Shown piece by piece: positions 4,583-33,988 of a stretch of 34,148 nt of DNA. The stretch is taken from positions 10,962 to 45,109 of the forward strand of contig MGTD01000054.1 of NCBI GenBank assembly GCA_001799285.1, in the 5' to 3' direction. Numbering within the stretch: the stretch's first letter is position 1; every line of letters begins with the position of its first letter. Source of the DNA: Deltaproteobacteria bacterium RIFOXYD12_FULL_56_24. GTDB taxonomy: Bacteria; Desulfobacterota; Desulfobulbia; Desulfobulbales; Desulfurivibrionaceae. Below the pieces are notes generated by a model. That model was not told where the DNA came from and did not search any database. It saw only the letters and a program-made list of their open reading frames with translations. The translations under genes and the position numbers were made by a program.

Positions 4583-4717
4583 GAGCAGCTATTTATTTTT
4601 TTTATAAAATGATATCAATCAGTTGTATTGTTATCCCGGCGCAACTCCTTTTCTCCCCAACAAAACTCAGGTAACCAATCACGGGGCAAACCCATAAAGG
4701 TCAAATAACCAAGGAAC

Positions 4718-4822
4718 AAGCGGTCACAGGGTGCCGCAGATTGCGGCAAGCGGGACGGCGATGCGTACTTTTGTACGTGAGCCGGACCGATCGCCGCAAG
4801 ATGTGGTGCCCTGTGACCGCTT
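4718..4822. repeat. 105-bp imperfect palindrome, copy 1 of a family of three
   Basis: The outer arms AAGCGGTCACAGGG (4718-4731) and its complement (4809-4822) are perfect. Stem pairing then continues through G-U wobbles and a two-base purine mismatch to GCGGC/GCCGC, around a central GCGTAC-TTTT-GTACGT hairpin. The inner part matches the elements at 14146-14251 and 20470-20575 while the arms differ. It begins seven bases after the ilvE stop and may also act as its terminator. It does not resemble a transposon end or attC site that I know. Confidence 0.75.
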
Positions 4823-4828
4823 ACAAAC

Positions 4829-5896
4829 TCAGAGCTTTATCACCCAGCCGTAAGGATCTTCCTTGGCCCCATACTGAATGGCCTGGAGTTCATCAAACAG
4901 CCGCTGAGACAAAGCGCCGGTTTTCCCGTGGTTGATCAAGCAATCCCGGCCCTGGTAATGCAGGGAGCCCACCGGCGAGATCACCGCCGCGGTGCCGGTG
5001 CCGAAGATCTCCGTAAGCGAGCCATCTTCCTGGGCCGCCAGAACCTCGTCGATGGTTATCCTGCGCTCCACTATGTCCAGGCCCCAGTCCTTGACCACCT
5101 GGATCACTGAATCCCTGGTGATTCCCGGAAGGATGCTGCCCCCCAACGGCGGGGTGATAATCTTCTCGCCGATGACGAAAAAGATATTCATGGTCCCCAC
5201 CTCTTCGATGTACCTCCGCTCCACGGCATCGAGCCAGAGCACCTGGGTGAAGCCTGCCTGCTGAGCCTCCACCGCCGCCATGATACTGGCCGCGTAGTTG
5301 CCCGCGGTTTTCACATGCCCCACCCCGCCGGGCACGGCGCGGACATATTTGTCGGTGACATAGATCTTGACCGGGTTGAAGCCTTCGGGATAGTAGGCGC
5401 CGACCGGACTCAGGATGACAAAGAAGAGATATTGCTTTGCCGGCCGCACCCCCAGGGCCGCCTCGGTGGCGATCATGGTGGGCCGGATGTAGAGCGTGGC
5501 GCCCTTGGCCGAGGGAATCCAGTCCTGATCGAGCCGCAGCAGCTCCTTGAGGGCGGCGAGGACCTTGTCCACCTCCAGTTGCGGCATGCAGAGCCGCGCC
5601 GCCGACAGATTCATCCGCGCGAGATTGTCCGCCGGCCGAAAGAGATAGATGCCGCCGTCCTTGCCCCGGTAAGCCTTCATCCCCTCGAAGATGGCCTGGC
5701 CGTAATGGAGAACCATGGCTGCCGGATCCAGGGAAAAATTCCGGTATGGCTGGATTGAGGCGTCGTGCCACCCCTTGCCTTCGGTGTACGACATGACCAG
5801 CATATGATCGCTAAAATGTCTACCGAAACCCAGGCAACTTTGGTCCGGCTTGCACTTTGCTTCTTTTTCCGTGACTCTTTCCAACTGTAGATCCAT
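4829..5896 (-). CDS. ilvE: Branched-chain amino acid aminotransferase
   Basis: This 355-residue PLP enzyme of fold type IV performs the last step of leucine, isoleucine and valine synthesis (2-oxoacid plus glutamate). The PLP lysine is K196 in GHVKTAGNYAAS. The phosphate/cofactor motifs EEVGTMNIFFV and GTGTAAVISPVG are present. The length and the N-terminal region (FGRHFSDHMLVMSY) match the longer BCAT type shared with eukaryotes and many anaerobes rather than the roughly 310-residue E. coli type. I start at 5896 because GAGG lies just upstream; a longer in-frame start at 5920 would include that ribosome site in its coding part. It stands alone on the minus strand. Confidence 0.95.
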   Translation of the reverse strand: MDLQLERVTEKEAKCKPDQSCLGFGRHFSDHMLVMSYTEGKGWHDASIQPYRNFSLDPAAMVLHYGQAIFEGMKAYRGKDGGIYLFRPADNLARMNLSAARLCMPQLEVDKVLAALKELLRLDQDWIPSAKGATLYIRPTMIATEAALGVRPAKQYLFFVILSPVGAYYPEGFNPVKIYVTDKYVRAVPGGVGHVKTAGNYAASIMAAVEAQQAGFTQVLWLDAVERRYIEEVGTMNIFFVIGEKIITPPLGGSILPGITRDSVIQVVKDWGLDIVERRITIDEVLAAQEDGSLTEIFGTGTAAVISPVGSLHYQGRDCLINHGKTGALSQRLFDELQAIQYGAKEDPYGWVIKL

Positions 5897-7873: not shown

Positions 7874-8347
7874 ATGGAAAAAACAGCACGCATTGCGCCG
7901 GGGCACCAAGCCTTGCGCAAGGGTAGGGTCACTGAATCCGGCAGGATCTACCATGTGATCACCTCCACACATGACCGGTATCCTTACTTTACCAGCTTTG
8001 CCCATGGCCGTTGCGTGGTCAGTGAAATGCGCCGGTTGGCTGAAGAGGGCTGCGTTGATTCGTTGGCCTGGGTTCTTATGCCTGACCACTTGCATTGGTT
8101 GTTTGCTCTTACCGTAAAAAATTCGTTGCCTGAAGTAATCCGCCTTTTAAAAGGCCGTTCCGCCTTTAGCCTGAACCGGATTTTACAGCGGCATGGACCG
8201 GTCTGGCAAAAGTCTTTTTATGATCATGCCCTGCGAAGGGATGAAGATGTCCGTCTGGCAGCGCATTATATAATTGCAAATCCGCTGCGGCGAGGATTGG
8301 TTGAGGATGTATTGGATTATCCTCTCTGGGATATGATCTGGTTGTAA
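7874..8347 (+). CDS. REP-associated tyrosine transposase (RAYT, Y1_Tnp/HUH)
   Basis: This 157-residue single-strand DNA nuclease is related to IS200/IS605 transposases and is thought to spread REP palindromes. The HUH motif is MPDHLHWLF with H72 and H74. A candidate catalytic tyrosine is Y116 in WQKSFYDHALR, and the family signature YIIANPLRRGLV is at 132-143. It looks intact. The gene is bracketed by REP units (7846-7867 and the pair 8392-8446), the usual genomic arrangement for RAYTs. No good ribosome site precedes the ATG, so expression may depend on readthrough from the dehydrogenase gene 24 bases upstream. It is a domesticated element rather than a free insertion sequence. Confidence 0.92.
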   Translation: MEKTARIAPGHQALRKGRVTESGRIYHVITSTHDRYPYFTSFAHGRCVVSEMRRLAEEGCVDSLAWVLMPDHLHWLFALTVKNSLPEVIRLLKGRSAFSLNRILQRHGPVWQKSFYDHALRRDEDVRLAAHYIIANPLRRGLVEDVLDYPLWDMIWL

Positions 8348-8391: not shown

Positions 8392-8446
8392 GTAGGAGCG
8401 GCTTCAGCCGCGATTCAGTGGGTTTCGCGGCTGAAGCCGCTCCTAC
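8392..8446. repeat. REP pair (BIME), right of RAYT
   Basis: Two perfect 22-base REP units face each other (8392-8413 and 8425-8446) across an 11-base spacer. Just before them CGCGATTGGTA occurs twice in tandem (8373-8394). The right-hand unit supplies the TAG stop (8443-8445 on the minus strand) of the radical SAM gene. Confidence 0.9.
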
Positions 8447-11269: not shown

Positions 11270-14149
11270 ATGGGATATAAGTCGTATATGGTTTGGCATA
11301 TGCTGCGGTTTCTACCTGACAGACTACAGTCTGATGCGAGGCGTGCTCCCGGTTTACGCGACCGATTGCCCCTACTCTTTTTCTTCCTTCTTCTCCTGTG
11401 TATGACCATGACTCCCACCTATGCCGAAGCTGTTGAACTCGCCCCGCACCTGCACAAAAACAAGCTTGCCAACGGCCTGACCGTTCTGGTCAAGGAGACC
11501 CCCGGCACCAAGGTGGCCACGGTCCAGATCTGGGTCAAGGCGGGGAGCATTTACGAGGAAAAGCATGAGGCGGGCATCACCCATCTCATCGAGCACATGA
11601 TCTTCAAGGGCACCCCCAGCCGCGGTCCCGGCGAGGTGGCCGGTGCCATCGAGGCGGTGGGCGGCCAGATCAATGCCTACACCTCCCACGAACACACGGT
11701 CTACCATGCCACCCTCTCTTCCCGGAATTGGGAAGAGGCTCTGGAAGTACTCTCCGACGCGGTGCTCAATTCGACTTTCGAATCCGGGGAGCTGGAGCGG
11801 GAAAAAAAGGTGGTGCTGGAAGAGATCAGCATGCGCAAGGACCGGGCCAATATCGTCCTGTTTCAGGAGCTCATGGCCCAGGCTTACACGGTGCATCCCT
11901 ACCAGCTGCCGGTAAGCGGCACGGCGGAGAGCGTCAGCGCTATCAGCCGCGACGACATCCTCCGCTACCTGAAAAACCATTATCACCCCGACAATTTTAC
12001 CGTGGTGGTGGTGGGAGATGTCCGGGGGCAACAGGTGGTGGACGCGGTGCACCGCCTGATGGCGGGCTTGCCGAAAAGTGACGCCAAGCCGCCCGCCACC
12101 CCCAGAGAACCACCTCAGCAGAAAGCCCGCCTCTTCGCCCTGACCGAAGACGTCAACCAGACCCAGCTGGCCCTGGCCTTTCCCGGTTCTGCCTTCAAGA
12201 GCCAGGATACAGCCATCCTTGATGTGCTGACCAGCATCCTCGCCAGCGGCGAGACCTCCCGCCTCTACACCCGGCTGCGCAACGACAAGGGGTTGGTCTA
12301 CCGCATCGACGGTTCGGCCTTTACTCCCCGCGATCCGGGCTTGCTGGAGTTCTCCGCCACCCTGGAAGCGGACAAGGTGGCCGCCGCCCTCACCGAGACG
12401 CTCACCGAGATCTTCCGCCTGAAACACGCCAAGGTGAGCGATGAGGAGCTTGACCGGGCCAAACGCAATCTGGAAAGCGACTTCATCTTCAACCTGGAGC
12501 GGGCCGAGGGCCAGGCAAGGGTTCTGGGCTCTTTCGAATTCCTGTCCGGAGATCCGCGGGAGGATAAATATCTGGCTCAGGTCCGGGCGGTGAGCAAGGA
12601 GGATATCCAGCGGGTCGCAGCCTTCTACCTCAAAGGCGAGCAGCTCACCGTGGGTACCATTGCCCCGCTTGGCACCGTCCTGACCTTGAATCAGGCGCAA
12701 CTGACAAAGATTATCGCCAAGGCCGATACCGCCGCCAAGCTTGGCCAGCCCGCCTCCCAGGTGGACGGCGCCTTTCTCACCGGGGTCCACCGCTTCCATC
12801 TGAAAAACGGCATCCGGCTCCTGGTCCGGGAGAATCATGAGGTGCCCACCGTTTCCATCCGAGCCGTCATGCCCGGCGGACTCCGCAGCGAGACCGGGAC
12901 CAGCAACGGCGCCTTCGCTTTTATCAGCGAACTCCTGCCCAAGAGCACGGAGCAGCTGAGCGCGGACGAACTGGCCAGAAAAGTGGCCAACATGGCCGGT
13001 TTTCTCGGCGGCTTCAACGGTAAAAACACCTTTGGCATCAAGGGCGACTTTTTATCCCGCTTCACCAACGAGGGGTTGGCCCTGATCCGGGACGTCCTCC
13101 TCACCCCGGCCTTCGCTCCGGCGGAGGCCGAGAAAATCCGGCCGGAGATGCTCTCCCAGCTCAAGAATCAGGAAGACTCCCTGCCCAGTCTGGCCTTCAA
13201 GGAATTCAACAAGCGGTTGTTCATGGGCCATCCCTATGGCCTCAACACCTTGGGCAACGAGACCACCATCGGCAACTTCACCGTGGCCGAGCTCAAACGG
13301 TTGTACGAACAGCACGCCCGGCCCGAAGCTCTGGTTCTAGCCGTGGCCGGCGATGTTGACGCGGAAAAGGTCCGGGAGACCGTGGAGCAGCTTTTTTCCG
13401 CCTGGAGCAAACCCCTGGCGGAAAAAACGTCAACAGGGGAAAGCGCCCTGCCCCCGGATGTGCCGGCCGGCCCGGATATTGTCAGCATCACCCGGGACAA
13501 GCAGCAGGTGCATATCGTCATCGGCTTTGTCGGCACCACCCTGAGCAATGAAGACCGCTACGGCCTCGAGGTGCTGGACACCGCCCTTTCCGGGCAGAGC
13601 GGCCGGCTGTTCACCGAGCTGCGTGACAAGCAGAGCCTGGCCTACAGCCTCTCCTCCTTCTCCCTGCTCGGCTTGGACACCGGCTCCTTCGGCATATATA
13701 TCGGTACCAGCCCGGACAAAAAGGATGCGGCGATCAAGGCTGTCTGGCAACAGCTCTACCGGGTGATGGAAGAGCCGTTAAGCGAGGAGGAACTGACCAA
13801 GGCCAGAAACGTGTTGATCAGCAATTACGCGCTGAGCCTGCAAACCCGCGGCAATCAGGCCATGGAAATGGCCTTGAACGAAACCTACGGACTGGGCCAG
13901 GATTTCGGCAACCGTTATGTCCATGCCCTTGAACAGGTGGATGCCAAAACCGTGCTGGGAATAGCCCGCAAATACATCCGACCCGGCAACTATGTGCAGG
14001 TCACGGTGGGGGCCGACTCCCTCATGCCGACACAGAAACCTGAGGCACCGCCGCATACCGAGGCCGCCCCCGTCATTATTCCAGCAAAAAAGACCGGAGT
14101 AACTATCCAGCTCAAGGACGGAAACGAACAAAAACAACCCAAACCGTAA
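11270..14149 (+). CDS. Periplasmic M16 zinc peptidase, two-domain (pitrilysin/PqqL-like)
   Basis: This protein of up to 959 residues contains two tandem M16 halves. The first has the inverted zinc motif HLIEH (105-109) and the distal glutamate E185 in VVLEEI, so it should be active. The second half (from about residue 510) has no HxxEH but retains the R...Y closing motif (SGRLFTELRDKQSLAYS), as is usual for the inactive partner half. A hydrophobic stretch (LLFFFLLLLC, 35-44) ending near TYAEA acts as signal peptide, so it probably degrades peptides in the periplasm. The true start is unclear: ATGs at 11270, 11288 and 11300 all lack a good ribosome site. Its stop TAA lies inside the palindromic element 14146-14251. 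Confidence 0.9.
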   Translation: MGYKSYMVWHMLRFLPDRLQSDARRAPGLRDRLPLLFFFLLLLCMTMTPTYAEAVELAPHLHKNKLANGLTVLVKETPGTKVATVQIWVKAGSIYEEKHEAGITHLIEHMIFKGTPSRGPGEVAGAIEAVGGQINAYTSHEHTVYHATLSSRNWEEALEVLSDAVLNSTFESGELEREKKVVLEEISMRKDRANIVLFQELMAQAYTVHPYQLPVSGTAESVSAISRDDILRYLKNHYHPDNFTVVVVGDVRGQQVVDAVHRLMAGLPKSDAKPPATPREPPQQKARLFALTEDVNQTQLALAFPGSAFKSQDTAILDVLTSILASGETSRLYTRLRNDKGLVYRIDGSAFTPRDPGLLEFSATLEADKVAAALTETLTEIFRLKHAKVSDEELDRAKRNLESDFIFNLERAEGQARVLGSFEFLSGDPREDKYLAQVRAVSKEDIQRVAAFYLKGEQLTVGTIAPLGTVLTLNQAQLTKIIAKADTAAKLGQPASQVDGAFLTGVHRFHLKNGIRLLVRENHEVPTVSIRAVMPGGLRSETGTSNGAFAFISELLPKSTEQLSADELARKVANMAGFLGGFNGKNTFGIKGDFLSRFTNEGLALIRDVLLTPAFAPAEAEKIRPEMLSQLKNQEDSLPSLAFKEFNKRLFMGHPYGLNTLGNETTIGNFTVAELKRLYEQHARPEALVLAVAGDVDAEKVRETVEQLFSAWSKPLAEKTSTGESALPPDVPAGPDIVSITRDKQQVHIVIGFVGTTLSNEDRYGLEVLDTALSGQSGRLFTELRDKQSLAYSLSSFSLLGLDTGSFGIYIGTSPDKKDAAIKAVWQQLYRVMEEPLSEEELTKARNVLISNYALSLQTRGNQAMEMALNETYGLGQDFGNRYVHALEQVDAKTVLGIARKYIRPGNYVQVTVGADSLMPTQKPEAPPHTEAAPVIIPAKKTGVTIQLKDGNEQKQPKP

Positions 14150-14251
14150 CTATCCAGCAGTGCCGTAGCTGCTAGGCAGAAGCCTGCGACGTGTGCTGGT
14201 GCCCATGAGCAGGCTGATAACAACGCAGATGCGGTGCTGCTGGATAGTTAC
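14146..14251. repeat. 106-bp imperfect palindrome, copy 2 of the family
   Basis: The outer arms GTAACTATCCAGCAG (14146-14160) and its exact complement (14237-14251) enclose a core sharing TGCCG.AG at the left, GAGC.GG..GAT in the middle and GCAGATGCGGTG at the right with the copy at 4718-4822. Central hairpin pairing is weaker than in copies 1 and 3. It contains the stop codon of the peptidase gene and ends six bases before the rpe ribosome site. A third GTAACTATCCAGC lies in the peptidase coding sequence at 14098-14110. Confidence 0.72.
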
Positions 14252-14266
14252 AGACCGGAGAATAAC

Positions 14267-14925: not shown

Positions 14926-14972
14926 GGCTTCAGCCGCGATTCTGTGGTTATCGCGGCTGAAGCCGCTCCTAC
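14926..14972. repeat. REP pair after rpe, left unit truncated
   Basis: The right unit (14951-14972) is a full copy of the 22-base REP. The left unit (14926-14939) lacks the GTAGGAGC head. It lies directly after the rpe stop and before the hslO stop, between convergent genes, a typical REP location. Confidence 0.85.
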
Positions 14973-20442: not shown

Positions 20443-20469
20443 ATCTCGCCGTTCTCCTTTATTATGTGG

Positions 20470-20575
20470 TAATCGTTCAGGAACACCCCATCTTCGGGCG
20501 ATCAGCCAAGCTTACGTACACGAGGTACGCGGCGCCTGCCTGCTTGCCCGAACCTGGGGGACTCCTGAACAATTA
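20470..20575. repeat. 106-bp imperfect palindrome, copy 3 of the family
   Basis: The arms TAATCGTTCAGG (20470-20481) and CCTGAACAATTA (20564-20575) pair with one G-U. Read on the minus strand the core matches copy 1: GGCAAGC, GCGTAC...GTACGTAAGC, GATCGCC, AAGATGGGGTG. The arms are unrelated to those of the other copies, while length is the same to one base. Confidence 0.75.
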
Positions 20576-20750
20576 CAGCCCGTTAAACCTGCGGGTTATT
20601 GGCCCTTGGTGAACGGTTACATTATGTGACGCCGGAAAGGTGGTTCCGCGCCATCAGACGCCTTGGGGAAAAGAGTTCCCGGTTTGTCCTATCATCGGTT
20701 GACCGAGTCATTGTCTTTAACAAAAAATACGTTAAAAATTGAGAGGATAG

Positions 20751-22949: not shown

Positions 22950-23271
22950 CCACAACACTGCAAATGAATTCATCTCTCATCCCGTTTTTTCTCTGCGCAC
23001 AGGGCTGATAAATTTCTCTAACTTTTTTCCTCAAGACAGTTTCAAATAGAACAAGGAATAGGTTGAAACAATTGTTGAAATGCACGACATTAAGACGTTA
23101 AGATCCCCTCCTAACGCATATTACCTTGGCAATTTGTTTTGTAGACCCGCAGACTTCATGATATTAAACGACGGGTAGTGGAAAAATATCCAGACCTTGT
23201 GATCCTTAATGTATTCACCCTTGCCACCGCAAAGATTACTAATTTCAAATCCTCCACCAAAGGGCAATATT

Positions 23272-24144
23272 ATGTACCCAGCAAGCCCTTTACGCTACCC
23301 TGGAGGCAAAGGCTGCTTGGCCGATTTATTATCTAGCATTATTGACTTAAACGATTTGCGTGGTTGTGCTTATTACGAGCCTTACGCGGGTGGGGCTGGT
23401 GCGGCCCTTGAATTGTTGCGGAGCGGAATTCTTGGAGATATTTTTATCAACGATGCCGACGAACGGATCGGCGCTTTCTGGAAATCAGCTTTGGATGAAA
23501 GCCACCGTTTCGTAGATAAAGTCTTGGATGTCCCCTTGTCCATTGAGGAATGGCAACACCAGCGCAATATCTGCGCTAATCCCCAACTCCATAAACGTTT
23601 CGAGGTCGGCTTTGCAACGTTTTACATGAACAGGTGTAACCGCTCTGGTGTACTAACTGGGGCTGGCCCTATCGGCGGATACGGGCAAGCCGGGAAATGG
23701 AAGTTGGGCGTCCGCTTCAATCGTGAGGCTCTGGCTGAACGCATCCTTTGTTTGAGTCGCATGGGGGACTGTATACACGTTAGCAACCATGACGCATTAG
23801 ATTTTCTAAAATTAAGCCTTCCGCGTGGCAACGCACGAAAACGCGTGTTGGTCTATCTTGATCCCCCTTACGTGAACAAAGGTCAACGTCTTTACCTCAA
23901 CTCCTACGAGGCCCGTGACCATGCAAGTCTTGCCCGCTATATCACCGGCCAAGCTATCTTGCCTTGGATCATGTCATACGACGATACGGATCTAGTCCGT
24001 AAACTCTATTCCAGGCAGCAATTGGGAATGCTTCCCATTCGATATTCACTTCAGACAAAACGCAATGATTGTGAGTTACTAATTGCTCCGTGGCACTTGG
24101 CTTTGCCAAAATCGAGAATTGTTTCTATAGTCAAAGCGTTATAA
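23272..24144 (+). CDS. DNA adenine N6-methyltransferase (Dam/D12 class)
   Basis: 290 residues. The enzyme transfers a methyl group from SAM to adenine in a short DNA site. Motif X/N-terminal YPGGKG (9-14), motif I EPYAGGAGAA (36-45) and motif IV DPPY (197-200) are in the alpha-class order of Dam-type enzymes. Length is usual. The start at 23272 is supported by AAAGGG upstream and by MYPASPLRYPGGKG matching family N-termini; an ATG at 23209 has no support. Base composition is clearly more AT-rich than in the flanking housekeeping genes. It heads a three-gene plus-strand cassette and probably protects host DNA from the third gene's product. Target site unknown. Confidence 0.9.
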   Translation: MYPASPLRYPGGKGCLADLLSSIIDLNDLRGCAYYEPYAGGAGAALELLRSGILGDIFINDADERIGAFWKSALDESHRFVDKVLDVPLSIEEWQHQRNICANPQLHKRFEVGFATFYMNRCNRSGVLTGAGPIGGYGQAGKWKLGVRFNREALAERILCLSRMGDCIHVSNHDALDFLKLSLPRGNARKRVLVYLDPPYVNKGQRLYLNSYEARDHASLARYITGQAILPWIMSYDDTDLVRKLYSRQQLGMLPIRYSLQTKRNDCELLIAPWHLALPKSRIVSIVKAL

Positions 24145-24166
24145 AAAGCTTCCGAGAGGAATTTTT

Positions 24167-25282
24167 ATGAGTACTAAAGCAGCTATAGTCCCAGTCAAAG
24201 CTTCTGAGTTGCACTTCGACTATCAGAACCCTCGCTTGGCTGAATACGGCATCGGATTTTCGACGAAAGAAGAAGACATTCTTCAAATCCTATGGGATGC
24301 GATGGACGTGCGTGAACTGATCCAGTCCATCTCTGCCAGCGGATTCTTCCCTCATGAGGCACTCATTGTTGCCGAAGAAGGAGGTAAAAAAATTGTCATT
24401 GAAGGCAATCGACGATTAGCTGCCGTGAAGGTACTACTCTCTCCGTCCGTGGCCAAACTAAATGGCTGGGATATTCCGGCACCCTCGAAGGAAGTCCTAA
24501 ATAGTTTGGTGAATTTGCCGGCAATCATCTCTGACCGCTCAGATTCTTGGCGCTACCTAGGTTTCAAACATGTAAATGGGCCCGCTAAGTGGAGTAGCTA
24601 TGCCAAAGCGGCCTATATCGCCCAAGTCCATACAGATTTTGGTATCCCTTTAGCAGATATTGCCAATCAAATCGGTGATCGACATAACACCGTACAACGG
24701 CTTTTCAGAGGCCTAATGGTCCTTGCACAGGCAGAGAAGGAGAAAGTTTATGATCGGGAGGACCGTTTCCGTCAACGTCTTGCTTTCTCGCATCTCTACA
24801 CCGGACTTGACTATGAAGGAATAAGCACCTTTCTTGACATTGCACCAAAAGAGAGCGAGACGGATGCCCCTGTCCCGAAAGCAAAACTCAAAGAGTTGGG
24901 AGAATTGCTGGTTTGGCTTTACGGGAGCAAGAAAGAAAAGAAGACTCCGGTGGTGGAATCACAAAATCCCGACCTTCGTCGCCTTAACGCGGTAGTCTCT
25001 AGCAGGGAGGCTATTGCCGCCCTACGGGACGGCGTGGTACTTGCCAAGGCGTTTGAGATCAGCCTCCCTCCCTCGACAGTCTTTGAGCAAGCGCTGCTGG
25101 CGGCGAAACGGGAATTGACCACAGCTCGTGCGACATTAACAGCGGGATATGACCAATCGGAAGCTCTTCTCCGGATCGCGGGAACAATCGCCAATATTGC
25201 GGATGATATCTATACCGAGATGGACCGGAAGAGGACTCCCTCTATGAAGAAGCCCCGTTTGAGCGAAAATAGAGATGTTTAA
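24167..25282 (+). CDS. ParB/Srx-like nucleotide- or DNA-binding protein of the methylase cassette
   Basis: 371 residues. The N-terminal ParB/sulfiredoxin-fold domain has the diagnostic EGNRRLAAVK (79-88), the place of the GERRYRA box where ParB binds CTP. A helix-turn-helix-like segment follows (IPLADIANQIGDRHNTVQRLF, about 160-180). The C-terminal 190 residues are helical and unrecognised. GAGAGGAA sits seven bases ahead of the ATG, 22 bases after the methylase stop. It overlaps the nuclease-like gene by eight bases. It is not a partition gene: there is no ParA, and it sits with a methylase. A role as DNA clamp or target selector for the nuclease is inference. Confidence 0.75.
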   Translation: MSTKAAIVPVKASELHFDYQNPRLAEYGIGFSTKEEDILQILWDAMDVRELIQSISASGFFPHEALIVAEEGGKKIVIEGNRRLAAVKVLLSPSVAKLNGWDIPAPSKEVLNSLVNLPAIISDRSDSWRYLGFKHVNGPAKWSSYAKAAYIAQVHTDFGIPLADIANQIGDRHNTVQRLFRGLMVLAQAEKEKVYDREDRFRQRLAFSHLYTGLDYEGISTFLDIAPKESETDAPVPKAKLKELGELLVWLYGSKKEKKTPVVESQNPDLRRLNAVVSSREAIAALRDGVVLAKAFEISLPPSTVFEQALLAAKRELTTARATLTAGYDQSEALLRIAGTIANIADDIYTEMDRKRTPSMKKPRLSENRDV

Positions 25283-26240
25283 ACTCCCTGGCATTCCCAC
25301 TCCTCAATCGGAGGTGCACGATTTGGCTGATTTTGCCGAATGGCTGGCGTGGAAACAAGGAAGAGCGTCTTCCCGTGAAATCCTTGCCGCAATCGGCCGA
25401 CTTGATGATAATGACCACAATATCGGTTGTGACGATAACGCAGACGAACTTGCCGACGACCTTGATGAGGTGATGAACGAAATCGAGCGTCGTCAGACAG
25501 CATGTAATGGTGCGTACCCTTTCTCCTTGGGACTCGCAGGCACTGTCCTTGAAAATCGTCCCCCTTTGGGGGACTCACGAGCTGCTGTTTATTACTACCT
25601 GCTACTAGCCACCCGTTTAAACATGCAGAACAACCGAACACATGAAAAGATTGATGGAACCTTGTTGATGGAAGAACTTGGCGAACATGTTCTCGGCAAC
25701 TATCTCGGTGGGCGACGGATGAGCGTCAAATCCGGTGATACGGATGGCCCGAATTTCCGCCGGGCAATGAGTATGGTTTTTGGGACCCGCAACCCAGGCC
25801 GATTTCCTGATAAAGTTAGGGATCTGTGTTCAGCCGTGGGAGAGGGTGGGGCATTTCGAGCACTTGATACGGCATCTGTCGATGCGCAAGATGACAAACT
25901 AGACGTAGTGGCTTGGGTACCTTTTTCTGATCAGAAACCAAGCCAGTTGGTCCTCTTCGGCCAATGCAAAACTGGGACATCTTGGGAGGGACAAGTAACT
26001 CAACTGCAACCGGAGGCCTTCATTCGTAGATGGATGCGGGATCCTTTTTTGCTTACCCCTATACGAACTTTCCTAATTTCTGAGGCACCAAATCATGCTA
26101 AGTGGTGTGGAACTTGCCTATATGCCGGGCTTTTATTTGACCGGTGCCGAATCATCGACTTTTGTGCCGACTTGAATGATGACTTACTTAGTAGAATAAC
26201 CACATGGACAGATGCCGCAAAACAACAACTTTGCGCATAA
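25275..26240 (+). CDS. Candidate PD-(D/E)xK restriction nuclease of the methylase cassette
   Basis: 321 residues, not matched to a named family. The central segment LDVVAWV...LVLFGQCKTG has the spacing of a PD-(D/E)xK nuclease core: D210, Q230, K232, with Q replacing the common glutamate as in several restriction enzymes and Mrr-like proteins. The N-terminal part is acidic (DDNADELADDLDEV, 53-66). A cluster YYYLLLATRLN precedes the core. The start overlaps the end of the ParB-like gene (ATG at 25275, TAA at 25280-25282), implying translational coupling. With the Dam-type methylase first in the operon, a restriction-modification or other phage-defence role is the simplest reading. Confidence 0.6.
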   Translation: MFKLPGIPTPQSEVHDLADFAEWLAWKQGRASSREILAAIGRLDDNDHNIGCDDNADELADDLDEVMNEIERRQTACNGAYPFSLGLAGTVLENRPPLGDSRAAVYYYLLLATRLNMQNNRTHEKIDGTLLMEELGEHVLGNYLGGRRMSVKSGDTDGPNFRRAMSMVFGTRNPGRFPDKVRDLCSAVGEGGAFRALDTASVDAQDDKLDVVAWVPFSDQKPSQLVLFGQCKTGTSWEGQVTQLQPEAFIRRWMRDPFLLTPIRTFLISEAPNHAKWCGTCLYAGLLFDRCRIIDFCADLNDDLLSRITTWTDAAKQQLCA

Positions 26241-33916: not shown

Positions 33917-33988
33917 TAACGCAAAGGCGCAAAGACAACATGTTGAAATAAGATGATTAAAACTTTGCGACTTTGCGGCTTTGCGTTA
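33917..33988. repeat. Inverted repeat 'TAACGCAAAGGCGCAAAG', complete
   Basis: Left arm TAACGCAAAGGCGCAAAG (33917-33934) and right arm CTTTGCGGCTTTGCGTTA (33971-33988) flank an AT-rich centre. The left unit also occurs at 10195-10217. Its right end merges into the 59-bp repeat. Confidence 0.7.

Follow-up and report, generated by a model that had tools for sequence, protein, structure and literature searches.

The BOX elements of Streptococcus pneumoniae, which are high-copy, modular, strongly folding and non-autonomous repeats with a parasitic rather than a host-serving distribution (PMC3049150), are in their behaviour the nearest analogue to the elements described here, although the two are unrelated in sequence and host. 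Inner modules can be added to BOX elements without disturbing the outer stem, and evidence from compensatory changes is not reported in the same paper, where the term is absent (PMC3049150). Other short, palindromic, MITE-like repeats that occur in many copies include ERIC, Correia/NEMIS and RUP (summarised in PMC3049150). REP/BIME palindromes with their REP-associated tyrosine transposase (RAYT) are likewise recognised by strand, but differ from our elements in having no target duplications, another sequence and a single-strand mechanism. ERIC, Correia/NEMIS and RUP have other ends, target duplications and hosts, and to our knowledge none of them has a single core that is conserved throughout an order and combined with exchangeable ends. 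The hairpins of MITEs are usually ascribed to long terminal repeats.

Insertion sequences of the IS66 family (both the classic tnpABC and the ISBst12 type) resemble our elements in their GTAA ends and in the length of the target duplication, 8 bp, which has also been tabulated for the IS66 elements ISPpa5a and ISPpa7 (PMC3281130). Here, we investigated three palindromes in a stretch of 34,148 nucleotides (the window) from a draft genome of the Desulfurivibrionaceae. Our main reading, to which we assign a probability of roughly 0.85, is that these palindromes are the hairpin part of IS66-family miniature elements (MITEs, non-autonomous DNA transposons), that their transposase is supplied from elsewhere, and that their fold is selected for the element's own cycle. 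The elements were not found described in the open-access literature that we searched.

Anatomy of the elements

Strong inverted repeats occur at positions 4718–4822, 14146–14251 and 20469–20576 (minus strand) of the window, and all three hairpins fold far better than shuffled sequences (z of −8.0, −6.4 and −6.2, respectively). The three palindromes recorded in the earlier note are real, as are the inner boxes that it described as common to them, and a covariance model of the family recovers all three copies. The length of about 105–106 bp given there for the element was too short. The palindromes form the right-hand two thirds of small elements (~153 bases) with IS66-type ends, and each of the three units in the window, 152–154 bp long, has a perfect 8-bp target duplication on both sides. 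A unit consists of a left end starting with GTAA, a spacer and a hairpin of 105–108 nt, the right arm of which is at the same time the right terminal repeat (ending in TTAC). The hairpin starts ~46 nt from the left end and is ~108 nt long; its left arm repeats the right terminal repeat in inverted form inside the element.

The first element (e1, 4671–4824, plus strand) is a complete MITE of family A with a type I core; its 154 bp run from GTAACCAATCACGGGG, the left terminal repeat at 4671–4686, to CCCTGTGACCGCTTAC (GTAACC and GCTTAC ends) between copies of the duplication AAACTCAG at 4663–4670 and 4825–4832. Its hairpin, comprising inner arm, core and right terminal repeat, occupies 4718–4824. 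The second element (e2, 14099–14251, plus strand), of family B and with a type II core, lies at the 3′ end of a gene for an M16-type peptidase; here the duplications AGACCGGA (14091–14098 and 14252–14259) enclose 153 bp starting with GTAACTATCCAGC, the hairpin being at 14146–14251. On the minus strand, the duplications ATTATGTG (plus-strand spelling; 20461–20468 and 20621–20628) enclose the 152 bp of the third element (e3, 20469–20620), which starts with GTAACCGTTCACC, belongs to family C, has a type I core and carries its hairpin at 20469–20576. The three complete units were delimited by their duplications and by comparison with further copies, and the three hairpins by the inverted repeat, the fold against shuffles and the covariance model.

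The terminal repeats of the three elements (GTAAGCGGTCACAGGG in e1, GTAACTATCCAGCAG in e2 and GTAATCGTTCAGGAAC in e3) all start with GTAA and are of one type. The outer arms had been thought unrelated to one another, which was wrong: they are variants of a single terminal repeat, with the inner arm tracking the outer. Nor is the centre of the second copy a weak version of the others, as had been proposed; it is a distinct core of type II. An imperfect 33-bp inverted repeat with a 6-nt loop at 33917–33988 of the window (TAACGCAAAGGCGCAAAG and onward) is of another kind and not of the MITE type.

Mobility and relation to IS66

We drew 232 distinct hairpins with their flanks from the window genome and related genomes. 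In 122 of them an 8-bp duplication, with at most one mismatch, links the right end to a GTAA-type end upstream, and these paired left ends lie nearly all 42–52 nt upstream of the hairpin, with a peak at 45–48 nt. The mirror arrangement was seen once among the 232 and a hairpin bounded directly by the duplication twice. The empty-site comparison, made for e2, found the site empty with an exact junction in all 16 genus-mates, the kind of site that the earlier note had proposed to look for in related strains. The peptidase gene of these genus-mates ends in AAGATCGGTGAATAA or similar, and in the window genome the insertion splits it between GGA and GAATAA, so that the M16-type peptidase gains a new tail. 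GTAA ends often lie at gene ends elsewhere too (e.g., at the loci L019 and L026, as at window position 14099), where the gene they land in seems to receive from them either a stop codon or a new C-terminal tail.

That the palindrome builds new arms from each insertion site is one reading of the second half of the earlier proposal of a mobile hairpin that rebuilds its arms. The mobility stands, within a longer IS66-type MITE; the rebuilding does not, as the arms are versions of transposon ends rather than of the surroundings. The arm sequence of the second copy, GTAACTATCCAGC, does recur 47 bp upstream, but this upstream copy is the left end of e2 itself, inside the 8-bp duplications. Arm construction from the insertion site is refuted by the family-wide identity of the arms, which are constant within families of dozens of copies each, and we give it next to no credence.

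In both their GTAA ends and their 8-bp duplication the MITEs agree with the IS66 family. In the same order, single-gene IS66 elements have the ends GTAACTATCCAGC, GTAACTATTCAGC, GTAACTGTTCAGG or GTAACTACTCACC and are flanked by perfect 8-bp duplications; the protein of one of them (P0001) belongs to the IS66 family (NF033517, E 3e-86), and from its single-gene layout and size we take this element to be of the ISBst12 group. Family B ends are identical over 13 bases to those of full-length elements (loci L137 and L151; GTAACTATCCAGC), an exact match confined to family B, the ends of the other families being merely similar. Classic IS66 elements of the order have GTAA and an inner ACCCCATCT in common with the right end of the MITEs. 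These ends, together with the length of the duplication and the matching ends of full-length IS66/ISBst12-type elements, point to our elements as MITEs of the IS66 family. Compared with the insertion sequences, the MITEs lack a transposase gene, measure only 150–160 bp and carry the hairpin core, which is absent from the ends of the full-length IS66 elements examined.

Given the 8-bp duplications, the empty site and the matching ends, we infer that an IS66/ISBst12-type transposase encoded elsewhere would act on the left and right ends, cutting or copying the element between them and inserting it at an 8-bp stagger. An IS66 transposase (PF03050, P0001) was not found in the window genome or the 16 genus-mates, searched as draft assemblies.

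The window also holds, at 7874–8347 (plus strand), a gene for a RAYT (NF047646, E 1e-40), which invites a reading of the hairpins as REP/RAYT palindromes or, as these likewise fold as single strands, integron attC sites. The REP units of the window are, however, a different palindrome: a perfect inverted repeat, GTAGGAGCGGCTTCAGCCGCGA, adjoins the RAYT gene at 8392–8446 and a second unit lies at 14926–14964, which together make a RAYT/REP pair of the ordinary kind, without relation to the MITEs. Insertion by a RAYT or an integron leaves behind no duplication of 8 bp. At the MITEs such duplications are present, and a bias to one replication strand is absent in a complete relative (75 of 147 copies). 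The duplications and the empty site contradict the REP/RAYT or attC identity, which we regard as extremely improbable. Elsewhere in the window, a three-gene cluster at 23209–26240 (plus strand) encodes a D12-type DNA methyltransferase that resembles PD-Lambda-5 B (E 5e-96), a protein of 371 aa that resembles PD-Lambda-5 A (E 2e-17) and a third protein, of 321 aa, without match; the cluster is probably a defence system of the PD-Lambda-5 type with an unrecognised third gene.

Copy number and distribution

The genome searched is a 3.04-Mb draft in 67 contigs, and the copy numbers given for it are lower bounds. The covariance model, built from 32 representatives, finds at least 150 copies in it (all matches listed have E below 2e-15), well beyond the dozens that the earlier note had named as support. 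DNA searches place e1, near full length and with 95–99% identity over the query, at 40 or more scored sites in the genome, the family of e2 at 40 or more, some of them broken by an insert, and e3 and a fourth family, D, at 40 or more as well. The MITEs are typically 152–156 bp long and contain no transposase gene.

Among relatives, a family D query has matches in 67 of 116 genomes and in 34 of the 49 sampled genera of the order, and the covariance model, with E-values that are rough and assemblies that are mostly drafts, in 26 of 394 sampled genomes from across the phylum, some of them beyond the order. Named carriers are Desulfobulbales and other deltaproteobacterial assemblies, including Desulfurivibrio, and one complete relative (G019; 3,097,763 bp) has at least 150 covariance-model matches. 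Some family D copies are 94–97% identical between different taxonomic families of the order, and this near-identity suggests recent horizontal spread. Two such loci (L093 and L094, in genomes G068 and G054) match family D of the window genome at 94–97% over 156 bp, in genomes of different families. The element was absent from viral contigs in an exact-pattern search and from plasmids in a search with one family consensus. Tandem arrays of hairpins, spaced ~110–120 bp apart with a short common linker (CCGGGTTGTTCT in L352), were seen at L352 (G024:C31:105900-106900) and L353.

Core types, end types and nested inserts

Two core types, both widespread, can be told apart: type I (e1, e3 and family D) and type II (e2). 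Type I cores bear the ends GTAAnCGTTCA (47), GTAAGCGGTCACAGGG (32), GTAACTATyCAG (11) and GTAACTGTTCAG (5), and type II cores GTAACTATyCAG (38), GTAACTGTTCAG (22) and GTAAnCGTTCA (14). Arm types and core types thus combine freely; either ends and cores have recombined or the ends have changed in parallel.

Extra small hairpins are inserted at the loops in several families. Their reading as a designed three-way junction is weakened by the module GTCAATCGTCGGCAG..GTGCCGAC: it is found by itself at other places as well as in another core type, so that a nested mini-repeat is the better reading. A tiny hairpin repeat, GTCAATCrTCGGCAG..GTGCCGAC, is found both alone and nested in both MITE core types (L254:916, L035:3003, L200:746, L209:2775, L230, L291 and L295). 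In several copies of family B (L054, L056, L058, L060 near 1622 and others), one and the same insert of ~53 bp, TAGCTGAGTTGAGCAGCTTGTCTGCTCAAACGAAACTTATACCCTCTGGGTGCAA, sits in the same place, from which it appears that the composite element was itself amplified. Related inserts adjoin family A copies (L003, L020 and L024), and at L016 (~2668, minus strand) a family B hairpin has kept its arms with its core swapped for another palindrome.

Selection on the folded strand

The 32 representatives come from the window genome and some 20 others; for them RNAalifold predicts 41 pairs, of which 27 show compensatory change. Changes on both sides of a pair fill 150 cells against 37.6 in shuffles, none of 500 shuffles reaching 150, an excess of the sort that the earlier note had called for, and sliding the partners by one base lowers the paired cells from 94% to 26–35%. 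As model and alignment were built from the same sequences, these covariation controls outweigh the model scores. The double-change excess is small within single families, the strong covariation coming from comparison between families, and copies related by descent are not independent, a kinship that the counting of events lessens but does not remove.

Single changes away from a standard pair, counted as distinct events across 12 families, are biased in both parts of the hairpin: G-U outnumbers A-C by 59 to 28 in the core (p 0.001) and by 26 to 9 in the arms (p 0.006). Unpaired sites have no C-to-T excess and no bias that would match this surplus, which points to the strand reading from the left end to the right end. 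The two-base purine mismatch noticed earlier is real and conserved (G.A in 27, and A.G or G.G in 28, of the 32 representatives), the core stem has a G.A in all 32, and a tandem U.G/G.U is kept in 28–29 of them. The inner arm matches the right terminal repeat at 12.7 of 14 positions, compared with 10.9 of 14 for the left against the right repeat. In family A it has lost the terminal GT and is thus unlikely to function as an end, but its full length still pairs with the right repeat.

Palindromes can gain matching changes through template switching during replication, and long ones are known to be corrected in this way. Copying of one arm onto the other could therefore have produced the compensatory changes in an ordinary MITE with no selection on the fold, and double changes are indeed found in the arms too (24 events). 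Such copying would, however, erase mismatches, whereas the G.A, A.G and tandem U.G/G.U pairs are kept in 27–32 of the 32 representatives, and G-U exceeds A-C on one strand; we therefore consider this origin unlikely. Selection on the hairpin's own fold, in the left-to-right strand, has been demonstrated statistically: in many genera, compensating mutations have preserved a one-strand fold, an unusual finding for elements of this kind. The one-strand surplus of G-U and the conserved non-standard pairs support the earlier suggestion that the fold acts as RNA or single-stranded DNA, both of which fit these sequence data alike.

What the fold may serve

By simple gene calling, 198 of the 232 copies (85%) are intergenic, often only a few tens of bases from a gene. 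This placement and the conserved fold would suit a host-serving RNA element (a regulator, processing site or terminator) that was spread by transposition. Against it, the copies show no bias to the direction of flanking genes (56 along, 69 against, 61 mixed), there is no T-run terminator, e2 is missing from all 16 genus-mates, and Rfam has no family match at the window elements or at 21 related loci; a host-serving role is accordingly rated as quite improbable. A direction bias would be expected of an RNA that regulates genes or of a mechanism at the replication fork, and none was seen relative to gene direction or, in the complete relative, to the replication strand; the fold is therefore most likely of use to the element itself, in its own cycle, and not to a host gene.

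In our main reading of the palindromes as the hairpin part of IS66-family MITEs, the right arm has to be compatible with the transposase, and the inner arm would change along with the right one so that the hairpin is kept; this would account for arms that vary from family to family around a constant core. The fold would act during the transposition cycle, as a transcript or as a single strand. A further and more tentative step, which we hold to be possible, is that this folded strand (RNA or single-stranded DNA), in which G.A and tandem G.U pairs are conserved, is required for the element to move or survive, and that the same core has repeatedly been joined to different IS66-type ends. If this were true, a single parasite could change from one transposase to another throughout a bacterial order and outside it.

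In these elements the hairpin is a structure in its own right, strand-specific and conserved, with ends that vary by family and a core that stays. The MITEs offer a clear case of a non-autonomous element at 150 or more copies in a genome in which no transposase was found for it, and they allow a test of whether a folded nucleic acid is used in the cycle of a DDE-type transposon.
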